Assembly: GCA_031761405.1 (NCBI GenBank)
Contig: JASEVX010000013.1
Location: 56,486,456-56,550,455 of the forward strand
Source: Serripes groenlandicus
Lineage: Eukaryota; Mollusca; Bivalvia; Cardiida; Cardiidae
Direction of reading: 5' to 3'
Length of the DNA stretch: 64,000 bases
Within the stretch, counting starts at the first letter, position 1. Each line of letters starts with the position of its first letter. A program made the translations under genes and the position numbers. This document shows positions 17,201 to 25,576 of the stretch, in pieces. The notes below the pieces were generated by a model, which was given only the letters and a program-made list of their open reading frames with translations, had not been told where the DNA came from and made no database searches.

Positions 17201-20200
17201 TGAGTTAAACTCACGATAACAAACTTCTTAAATGCATGTAAACACTTTTTTTATTCGGGACAGAATTCCTGAATCAAAATAAGTCATTTGAGGACAGAAT
17301 TTATGTAGCACAATAAATCATTCGGGGGACAGAGTTCTTGTATCAAAATAAATCATTCGGGGACAGAATTCCTGTATCAAAATAAGTCATTCGGGGATAT
17401 AATTCGTCTATCAAAATTAATCAATGGTAAATAAACTGTTTTAGAGATGCCTGCGTTTTTGGATCACTTCCTTGTGGTATATCATTTGTTCTGTCTTAGT
17501 GTCACACAGTCACTAACTGACATTCAGATTTCACGAAATATTTTGAAACCTGTCAGTCTGAAAGCTAATTATCATCAATTTCCTTCTTTGTTTAACCAAT
17601 AATTGCATGAAAATGTGTCAGTCCGAATGAATTTCTGTTGTTCAGTATTGAATGTCTGATAGTTTTTGTGAAGACTGCTGACATATTGGCAGGCGACACA
17701 TGTGTTCTTAGTTACATGAACACGTTCAGAAAGATTGTTTCCTTGTTCTTAGTAACATGAACACGTTCAAGAATAGGTTGTATGTGTTATTAGTAACATG
17801 AACACGTTCAAGAAGAAGTTTTCTGTCTTCTTTGTAACATGAACCAATTCATGAAGAAGTTTTCTTTGTTCATAGTAATATGATCACGTTCAAGAAGAAA
17901 TTTTCTTGACTCATATTGTTCAATTGTAATTTCAGGCGTCAGATGGAACAAATACAATATCACAGACAATTTCGATAACCGTCATGGGTAAGTGTTGTTA
18001 TTACACAATTATAGGTATATTTTGTTTGCTTAAGCACAATGTCCTACTAGCCATGGCAATGTTTATTTTTAGCTCCACCGGCTGAAGCCAGTCGAGCTTA
18101 TGTCAGGGCAAATTTTCCATCGTACGTGCTTGCGTGCATGCGTGCAAACGAATTCTCCTCATCATCTTCTACTAAACCACAGGACCAATTAAGACTAAAT
18201 TTCACAGGAATGTCCCTTTGGTTGATTTCTTACAAAACTGTTTAAACAATTAATTTCCGTTGAACACTTTGGTTGCTGCGACATCAGAAAGGGGGCAAAA
18301 ATCCAAACTTTAAAATTCTTCTCTTTTATATCTGCTGGTCAGATTCAAAAATAATTTGATATAAATTTGTATTGGGCGACCTACTACAATAATTGTTCAA
18401 GCCATATTGATTGATTGAAAAACATGGAAACCAGGCCGCATCAGAAAGGCCAAAATGACAAAATTTTAATAATCCATCCTTATGAAAGTGCTTGTCTGAT
18501 TTCAAGATAAATTTGTAAAAATGTTCTTCCATCGATCTTACTACATACACGTTGTTGAGCCTTATTGATTAGTTGAACGACATAGTAACCAAGCGACATC
18601 CAAAAAGGGGTAATATTAACTTTTTGCTTCAAATGACATATCCTAATTCACTATACCAATTTCATCAACACTACATAGGAATGTTCCTTTATTGATCCTC
18701 TTTCATACATACATTCGGTGTAGAACTTTGGTTGATGCGGCATCACAGAGTGAGAAAGATACCAAAACTTTTGCATTCTTCTCTTCCAAAATGGGCTTGA
18801 CCAATTCCAAGATAATTTGATAGAAATTGTCCTCGAATGACCCCCTACAACAATTGTACAAGCCATATTGGTTGAATGTGGCAGCAAGGTGGAATCAGAA
18901 AAGTGGGAAATAAAAAAATCCCAGATATTTGCAGTTATATATTTGCTGCTATACTATCACTAAGGTAATCGCTTTAGGGCAATCTTGACCATCTTGTTTT
19001 TATGTGACAAGCAAATTTAAACCCCAGAAAGTCGAGCTCATTTAAACCCCAGAAAGTGTAGCTTATTTAAACCCCAGGAGGTCCATTTTGTGTGTGAAAA
19101 ACTTGTTTAAACCCCAAAAGTATGTTTTTTTGTGTGACAAGTTTCATTTAACCCCATTTATCCCTCATTCAACAAATCAGCAATCTTGAGAATATGTTGG
19201 TGAAAATATTAAAATTTAAAGTAAATAAAAGTAGGATCATTTAAAAGTTGGAAACATTTCGTCAAAAGAAAAAGTTGTTCATCATGAGCAATTTCATTTT
19301 GCAGCAATATTTTCAAAATGCGGGAAAGAATTGATTAATTATTTTCAAAACGAAGACTCTGTTCTATACCTTCAGGTAAAGATAAACCCAAAGCTACCAC
19401 AGGTTTAATAGTTGGTTTAACGATCGCTGTGGTGTGTGCCCTTGTTTTAACAGTAGTAATATATAGGAAAAGATGTAAGTATCCGTTCAGATAATCATAT
19501 ACAACAAATTTGCAGCAGACAACTTTAAAAACCATCTATGTGAAGAATGGGAACATGTCTATAAATGAAAGAATAACTATTGATTAGAGTTAAAAAATGT
19601 GTGTCAAAAGCCATCTGCTGCAGATGCTTTATATTCAATCTGCATGTTGGAGAGATTAATTCTTATCTGACAGGATGCATCCATATGTAGTCCATTTCCC
19701 TGCAGGCCCGAATTTGACAAAAGTTTATGGGATGTTTCATTGTCAAGACTAGTTGGGCATTTTGAATCCTAGAGCATACTTTGGTTGGACAGATATCTCC
19801 ATGTTTTGTAAAGTTTTGATCTTTAGCTCAACTAATCAAAGAATATTAGAACTATTGTACTAACCCTGGCGGCGGCATCGGCATCGGCGTCACAGCTTGT
19901 CCTTCAAACATCCTCTCCTAATGCAATTGATTTCACATGAATGTTTGGTTGTCCTCTTTCAAAAATGTTAAAAGAATTTGTTTAAATGCAGGAATCTGGT
20001 TGCCACGGTAACATATAACAAAACTTGATACATCTTCTTATTGAAGAGATATGTATTAACCCTTTCCCACATTAAACAAATCTGCAGCAGACGACTTTGA
20101 ACTCATACACGATAAACATATGGAAACTCTAATTAAATCATAGAATAATTATTGAATAGAGTAAATTTTTCAAACGGAGCAATTTTTCCTCTTGCCACAA

Positions 20201-23491: not shown

Positions 23492-25576
23492 TCTTAGCGT
23501 TTGATCCATATACTTGATGTTATAGGCGTATGTGAGTTCATTAGAAGGAAGAATTGGGAGTATGCTATGATAAATGAAATATTATTCACGTTTGAAAATA
23601 AATGGTATGCTACCGACAAACATTCATTTCATCAAGTTGGAAGTTCTTGCCCAGGAACAAATATACCCGGTTTACATTCTGATGTTGATATGTTAGGATG
23701 TTACGAAGATTTTCATAGTGTAAACAAATTAGCTGATGCTAAACAAAAGGGAGTTTCTTTCCTTATTTTCACCGATAAAGACACCAAACCTAGTTATTTG
23801 CGTCTTCAGTATGTTGGAGATCAACGTCCGCTTACTATTGAAGACATCAAACCTGAATATGTTCAGTATGTTAAAAGTCAACGTCCACATTATTGCGATG
23901 AAACTGAAAGAATTGTGTTTAAACTCGATGGTAAACTTAGAATATGTTATAACAATTCAATAATCATTAATAATTACTTCATTCGGAACGGACCAGCGGT
24001 TTACGCCAAATAGATATTGTATGTGCCTTCAGATGTCGACAGATACTGAGGTCAGCCAGTTCCTTGTTACACAGGATACGGAAATACGACTGGCCATCAG
24101 AGAAACAGCTTAATGCAATGGGTCCATATGGTTGTGTCCTTGTTGGTCCTGGTCAATCTCATAATAACAACAAGTCTAGCGAATATATAATTTATTTTTC
24201 ACTTCAAGAACGAAACCTCATGTCAAGTCTGACCGAAACGCAACACAAGTGTTACCTACTCCTCAAGATGATAGAGAAGGATATCATAAAACCAAAGGCC
24301 GGTGAATCTATATCATCATATCATTGTAAGACATGTCTTTTGTATACAATTGAAAATTCACAAAGACATATTTGGGTTAATGATAAGCTTATACTGTGTG
24401 TACAGCAGTGTCTTAAGCGTTTATTTATTTGGGTGAGGGCAAAACATTGTCCCAATTGTTTCATTCCAGAAGCGATTATGTTCGATAAGCTCAGCGTAAT
24501 GACTCTTGCAAAAATAGAGTATATTAGAGTGTGATATCAAGTTTTTAAATTCACTTACTTGTGACAATGCTGCCAAACTTCTGAAATCTAAACTATGTGG
24601 TGATGAACTGGTATGTAGTCTGCCTAATACGAGTACCAGGCGTCAGTCAAGAGTTGTAATATGCTATAGAATTACACTCAACGTCTATTATTATAGGAAC
24701 ATATCCATGTGACTCATGTCTATGCCTTCTAACACAAATACAGGTTATATGAATGGGGTGATGCAAATTTTGCTTTATCTACAATATACGAACAATGTGA
24801 CAGGACATACTACGAGAGACGTGAGAATGGCACTTGGCTCTATAATTCCAAATATGCAATTACAATGTTAACAGGGTATGTTTGTCCAGTACTTGTCACA
24901 AGGAAATCAAGCGGTTTATGACAATTTCAAATATAGTCTCCGACATTGGTGAATGTGACCTTATCTAATCAAAGTTATCTTTAGCATCTTTATATGTTCA
25001 ATGTGATCAGTACCGAGAGGAGTATAGGCGCATTCTAGTTTCATGTGAAAAAGAAACAGAACTATTTGTGGTATCCGTGTGTAACTGTTACGAAAAGATA
25101 ATTCAATGTAATCTCGCTCTCGCTATAAAAATGAGATTCACTGACATGTCAAGCAAAGACTTCACACAACATTGCACCACAGGATGTATGGTATTTCATC
25201 TATCTCAAGCAAGCCTTGTCCATAGAGCTCTTCAATACGAGATGTGCCGTAATGTGTTCACACAACCTGGATCTGAATTTCAAATGAAAAAGGACTACTT
25301 GTTAAACTGGATAACAGTAGATTTTCTAATATATTTGCATTTTCGACAGTATTTACCTTATTCTAAAGCAAAACAGAAGACAGAAATAGAAACGACTATG
25401 CAAAGACTAATCCACGTGCTAAACACGGACCCTAATCTTGGACACATAGAGAGACGGGGTTTACCCTGTTTGTGTGGATATATTTACAGTTAAAAGTATT
25501 ACAAGCAGCATGGAGATACTGTTGTTTATCATGGTAAATCAGACCTTTTAAAAATGCAGCTAAATGCAACATGCTA
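23468..25576 (+). pseudogene. Mab-21-like (cGAS-like receptor family) pseudogene
   Basis: Collinear Mab-21-like homology, apparently without introns. N-terminal part (frame 2, 23468-24012): MDTAKED, two TAG stops, IGVCEFIRRKNWEYAMINEI, then the nucleotidyltransferase signature GSSCPGTNIPGLHSDVD at 23639-23689. The two Asp of SDVD remain; the Glu usual after GSS is Pro. A TAG at 24011-24013 coincides with a shift to frame 1, where DIVCAFRC from 24013 supplies the third acidic position. C-terminal part: HRIRKYDWPSE, ERNLMSSLTETQHKCYLLLK, ISSYHCKTCLLYTIE and CFIPEAIMFDKLSVMTLAKI, typical of the Mab-21 C-lobe. Further breaks: a frameshift near 24525, stops near 24713 and 24917, and TAA at 25491. 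A bivalve-style C-terminal extension continues to about 25576. The family includes cGAS and cGLR immune nucleotidyltransferases and catalytically silent members. This copy cannot encode a full protein. Confidence 0.78.
23597..23602 (+). other. Candidate poly(A) signal AATAAA
   Basis: First AATAAA after the cadherin stop, about 106 bp downstream. It lies within Mab-21-derived sequence, where it reads as Asn-Lys. It could end the receptor transcript; there is no other support. Confidence 0.25.

Follow-up and report, generated by a model that had tools for sequence, protein, structure and literature searches.

In the bivalve Serripes groenlandicus, a stretch of 64,000 nucleotides (assembly GCA_031761405.1, contig JASEVX010000013.1, positions 56,486,456 to 56,550,455 of the forward strand; hereafter the window, whose first base is position 1) carries exons of a cadherin-type membrane gene that adjoin a broken copy of a separate Mab-21-like gene. 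This composite locus is well supported by its sequence. A first-pass annotation of the same DNA had suggested the remains of one ancestral protein with adhesion repeats, a membrane helix and an internal nucleotidyltransferase or, alternatively, a pseudogene start captured as the terminal exon of the cadherin gene. We favor, with fair though incomplete confidence, a joint reading in which a rearrangement created the locus and the cadherin gene would end in a predicted captured exon of 35 bases. That exon may exist, as its strong splice sites predict. The junction itself is likely to have arisen by chance and not to be a relic of a fused adhesion-immunity receptor.

The composite locus

The exons, arrays and acceptor of the window all lie on the plus strand. 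The last recognized cadherin exon is the transmembrane (TM) exon at 19376..19474, which follows the acceptor CTTCAG, ends in phase 1 before a GTAAGT donor at 19475 and encodes GKDKPKATTGLIVGLTIAVVCALVLTVVIYRKR. Downstream of it, a pyrimidine tract and acceptor AG occupy 23437..23456, and the acceptor TTTATTGCAG ends at 23456. The predicted captured terminal exon, 23457..23491, would complete a split codon, (T)AT, and continue with AGA CGA AAT, then with ATG GAC ACT GCC AAA GAG GAC, and finally with TAG. The frame joined across 19474/23457 thus reads YRRNMDTAKED, followed by TAG (23489-23491), TCT and a second TAG (23495-23497). This anatomy had been given in the first-pass annotation and proved exact to the base.

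Behind the join lies a Mab-21-like pseudogene (23468..25600) with two early TAG codons and several frame changes; it is homologous throughout to the intact 727-codon exon of a paralog, L002. Its open reading frame (ORF) at 23974-24534 matches Mab-21_C (PF20266, E 3.7e-12), which bears out the earlier assignment of this sequence, and gives E 0.0044 for Mab-21 (PF03281), under the cut-off of that family. The ORF at 23498-24013 by itself matched no Pfam family and is homologous to intact Mab-21-like exons. The intact paralogs L014 and L002 pass the Pfam cut-offs for both families, and the window copy passes that for PF20266 only. The nucleotidyltransferase core and the C-terminal HhH/H2TH-like domain place these sequences in the Mab-21-like family.

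On the other side of the junction, four cadherin exons precede the TM exon. The first, 2150..2277 (its start is 2150 or 2152; donor phase 1), holds the end of one repeat, the linker and the start of the last repeat. The last repeat continues in 15149..15217 (donor phase 1) and 16770..16882 (donor phase 0) and ends in 17936..17987 (donor phase 1). When joined, the five exons from 2150-2277 to the TM exon match the cadherin repeat PF00028 (E 5e-9, 36.9 bits against a cut-off of 28.8), and by this repeat the gene belongs to the cadherin superfamily. A single hydrophobic stretch after the repeat resembles, by eye, a TM helix. The start of the cadherin gene lies outside the window.

Origin of the splice acceptor

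To whom the acceptor belongs was examined among the Mab-21-like paralogs of the same assembly (1.76 Gb; the contig of the window is called C335 below), which we searched with 23437-25600 as query, scoring 40 of 220 candidate places. The 5′ ends of 32 paralog loci (L002-L030, L035, L036 and L039) were inspected; L016 (masked), L019 and L027 (no match) had no usable 5′ end, leaving 29 readable. The pyrimidine tract and acceptor are common to the family: all 29 show CAG followed by A[TC] and a leader near ATAGACGAGAC. Because the same acceptor and leader recur in all 29 readable paralogs, the acceptor at 23456 most plausibly belongs to the leader intron of the Mab-21-like family itself. A look through the 4-5 kb upstream of five paralogs did not identify the family's first exon.

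An ATG stands behind the leader in 26 of the 29 (in L012 after one extra base), and AGG replaces it in L017, L020 and L021. The exon is open for 702-727 codons in 21 of the 29, including L017, which is open for 708 codons with no ATG; this may be a young loss of the start, or the start may lie further in. The closest paralog among the 40 scored, L002, shares 79% identity with the window copy. Two features of these paralogs could speak for an ancestral fusion, namely the three leader codons ahead of the ATG, which are open in most paralogs (three being too few to tell), and the three paralogs that do without an ATG, among which L017 has 708 open codons.

A retrocopy origin of the window Mab-21 copy was also considered and ruled out, because the end of the leader intron and a 47-bp tandem array are common to the paralogs.

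Tandem arrays and the breakpoint

Two tandem arrays separate the TM exon from the Mab-21 acceptor and serve as markers of the two units. A 35-bp array (20406..22036) marks the cadherin side; it occurs in 12 of the 15 fetched TM-paralog records (nine of 12 non-overlapping loci) and in none of the Mab-21 records (0/29 and 0/25 in two sets, 54 in total, which overlap in place). The 47-bp array, which spans 22038..23411 (22038-22510 and 22873-23411) around an interrupting AG run, lies upstream of the Mab-21 acceptor and marks the other side, being found in 18/29 and 18/25 Mab-21 records and in none of the 15 TM-paralog records. Among the records fetched, the window and a second locus, L057/L072, are the only places that have both arrays. 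From this distribution we infer that the rearrangement took place where the two arrays meet, and the putative breakpoint between the cadherin and Mab-21 units is placed there, at 22037..22041.

Elsewhere in the window, further 47-bp arrays of the Mab-21-linked kind occupy 41711-45685, and open frames at 37940-38521 and 47468-48337 resemble, by eye, pieces of a retroelement reverse transcriptase and RNase H.

Tandem arrays are places where assemblies can fail, and a breakpoint between two of them could suggest that it was the assembly software that put the units together at a repeat. Nevertheless, the same order of parts, including both arrays and the acceptor, recurs 1.15 Mb away at 2-9% divergence, and we give an assembly artefact scarcely any credence.

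A second copy of the junction

This second locus, L057/L072 (C335:57.66 Mb, minus strand), is a duplicate of the whole junction. It holds, in order, the cadherin exon (differing from 17936..17987 of the window at 2 of 52 positions), the TM exon, the 35-bp array, the 47-bp array, the AG run and the same acceptor, and it diverges from the window by 2-9% depending on the segment. Its join reads YRRTMDTPKED in the same splice phase and meets the same first TAG; where the window has its second TAG, this copy has AAG. Losses of 5 and about 77 bases have shortened its Mab-21 part, and homology to the window stops near 24522. The simplest order would have the junction and the first stop predate the duplication.

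The in-frame join in both composite copies would favor an ancestral fusion. However, since L057/L072 duplicates the window locus, the second join is not independent evidence. As the first-pass annotation had itself cautioned, an in-frame join occurs by chance one time in three, and it recurs only at this one duplicate locus. The stop at codon 8, which both copies share, also speaks against such an ancestor.

No purifying selection on the cadherin exons or the tail was detected in a comparison of the two composite copies. The cadherin itself may be decaying, because its exons 4-5 are not clearly more conserved than its introns.

An AATAAA signal lies about 106 bases past the common stop in both composite copies (window 23597 and L072 2952). 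It may be there by chance, since AT-rich DNA yields such signals.

Paralogs of the transmembrane exon

Matches to the TM exon number 16 and fall at 14 loci, the window among them; two of the loci are on C335 and the rest on C1518 and C1074. They were compared with 66 Mab-21 places, merged from two sets in which 40 of 220 and 40 of 96 candidates had been scored. Listed Mab-21 matches lie within 5 kb of a TM exon at two of the 14 loci, both on C335. Among the matches listed, there is none on C1518, and the nearest on C1074 is 8.9 Mb from a TM exon. A tblastn search with the intact L002 protein found no Mab-21 sequence in any of the 15 TM-paralog records; the same search does find it in L072. Within these listed places and records, no Mab-21 match was found beside the other TM exons, which argues against a decayed ancestral fusion.

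The donor phase points the same way. Ten of the 13 measured TM exons end in phase 2, where a join to the Mab-21 exon would read Ile-stop or Leu-stop; the 13 leave out L071, whose exon was too long for the pattern, and the second TM exon of L065 and of L066. With five of the phase-2 exons broken and L065 identical to L066, about five remain that testify well to the ancestral phase. The phase-1 exons are those of the window, its duplicate and L064, the frame of which is broken. The window and L057 are one base shorter ahead of the donor than most paralogs (AGGAAAAGATG vs AGGAAAAAGATG), and the in-frame join goes with this one-base shortening of the TM exon. Both the window and the paralogs have GTAAGT after the TM exon; the search pattern required GTAAGT, and the flanking intron is conserved too.

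In the phase-2 copies among the TM paralogs L058-L067, the frame meets TAA within GTAAGT (RKKM-stop), so that stop and donor coincide. L065 and L066 (C1518:72.42-72.43 Mb) carry two TM exons in tandem about 150 bases apart, as if alternatives.

Homologous proteins

A protein search with an intact paralog as query against 5.8 billion proteins returned 62 homologous proteins of 391-776 residues, and a cadherin domain is listed in none of them. In 11 of the 15 homologues compared, the protein starts at most 6 residues from the position of MDTAKED, the starts themselves being predicted. When the search was shifted toward longer proteins, four matches of 904-1319 residues appeared, all with Mab-21 only. 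Conversely, the first 108 of 153 cadherin residues (the TM part being outside the query) gave 33 matches with no Mab-21 domain listed; the eight named ones comprise four labeled bacterium, one fish and three without an organism. Two of the cadherin-query matches were examined and have no bearing on the tail.

The first-pass annotation had proposed looking for cadherin repeats and a Mab-21 domain in a single protein. No protein listing both domains was found among the 62, 33 and 4 matches, the cadherin query having run without its TM part, and among the papers that literature searches listed, none reports a cadherin-Mab-21 protein in its title or the opening of its abstract. With a stop at codon 8 in both copies as well, there is no cadherin-TM-Mab-21 fusion in these data. 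The relatives found are free-standing, and most of those compared start at the same point.

Taken with the acceptor and leader that are the family's own, the free-standing relatives, the 12 of 14 TM loci with no Mab-21 match found nearby and the stop in both copies, these results speak against the ancestral protein that had been suggested. That the locus is a decayed receptor with cadherin repeats outside, one helix and a Mab-21 domain of the cGAS-like receptor (cGLR) type inside is, in our judgment, very improbable. A transient version, in which the composite ancestor, between the junction and the first stop, encoded cadherin repeats, a helix and a working Mab-21-type nucleotidyltransferase, seems just as far from probable. 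If it were true, the ten-residue tail of the receptor would be what is left of the start of a membrane-anchored cGLR.

Use of the captured exon

We favor the following course of events. A rearrangement between the 35-bp and 47-bp arrays would have joined the cadherin and Mab-21 units. Both the junction and the first stop in the Mab-21 copy would be older than the duplication that gave rise to the two composite loci. Cadherin transcripts are predicted to splice 19474 to 23457. The cadherin would in this way borrow at most about ten amino acids from the Mab-21 exon and end in the predicted tail YRRNMDTAKED.

Support for the captured exon comes from a scan of 19500-25600 with a crude acceptor rule (YAG with at least 14 pyrimidines in the preceding 20 bases and no AG in the last 15). 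Only two of 291 YAG sites pass, 23456 and 24469; at the latter, which is within the pseudogene, the cadherin frame would run straight into a stop. By this rule 23456 is the best of the 291 sites outside the pseudogene body, and one good acceptor ahead of that body supports the captured exon. The earlier suggestion that the start of a pseudogene was captured as a terminal exon thus fits the sequence, and its use as an exon stands as a prediction from splice sites.

Several observations weigh against the joint reading or narrow its basis. Unspliced, the TM exon has its own stop: read through its donor, it gives the tail RKRCKYPFR and ends 6 codons past the donor in the window. The tail differs between the two copies at 3 of 35 positions (8.6%), as against 84 of 949 (8.9%) in the pseudogene (Fisher p = 1.0), and exons 4-5 differ at 6 of 151 positions as against 118 of 2241 in the introns (p = 0.70). 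Four of the 15 homologues start elsewhere than at MDTAKED or cannot be aligned there (P0004 is shorter, P0016 and P0022 are longer, and P0060 is too distant to compare). Five of the ten phase-2 TM exons (L062, L063, L065, L066 and L070) carry a stop of their own. Furthermore, the Mab-21 matches come from 40/220 and 40/96 places scored, most TM-paralog records end about 1.5 kb beyond the exon (for L059 on C1518, with L073, about 6.5 kb was covered), and the search for further cadherin exons ended at 25600.

The same composite locus may exist with its Mab-21 acceptor unused, the TM exon being terminal (RKRCKYPFR-stop) or spliced to an unrecognized exon. The nearby stop in the window, the RKKM-stop of the phase-2 paralogs, which a true terminal exon could have, and the captured tail without constraint would all suit this alternative. 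On the other hand, a GTAAGT donor stands behind this exon both in the window and among the paralogs, 23456 is by the crude rule the best acceptor between 19500 and 23456, and the unspliced tail of L057 continues for about 40 residues before a stop. An unused acceptor is a tentative possibility, and we prefer the reading with a predicted captured exon.

Relation to known systems

The Mab-21-like genes resemble the cGLR family: among solved structures, L014 matches cGAS-like receptor 1 best (8gjy, E 1.5e-14, query residues 156-356), and this likeness to 8gjy and cGAS is a sequence match. Li et al. (2023, PMC9980059) report more than 200 cGLRs from Dreissena polymorpha and define cGLRs by the motif h[QT]GS [X8-20] [DE]h[DE]h [X50-90] h[DE]h. 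In contrast, this strict motif, with a hydrophobic set of our own choosing, is matched by none of the 21 intact paralogs, because VGS or FGS replaces the [QT]GS element in them; all 21 match a looser GS..[DE]x[DE]. The window copy differs further from the cGLR family in being broken.

Like membrane cadherins, the locus has a cadherin repeat (PF00028) followed by a single hydrophobic stretch. Unlike them, its predicted cytoplasmic tail is very short, and no catenin-binding region was seen.

Chimeric genes and captured terminal exons can follow partial gene duplication, a form of exon shuffling. The present locus is similar in that two unrelated units have come together in the same orientation, so that a donor is followed by an acceptor already in place. 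It differs in that the captured piece is a pseudogene leader with its first codons, and transcription across the junction is predicted only.

Our analysis thus removes a tempting claim, that of a cadherin-cGAS fusion receptor, and puts in its place a composite locus in which two arrays label the origin of each half. If the junction is transcribed, a large tandem cluster of cGLR-type genes could supply ready-made 3′ exons to genes that land in the cluster.

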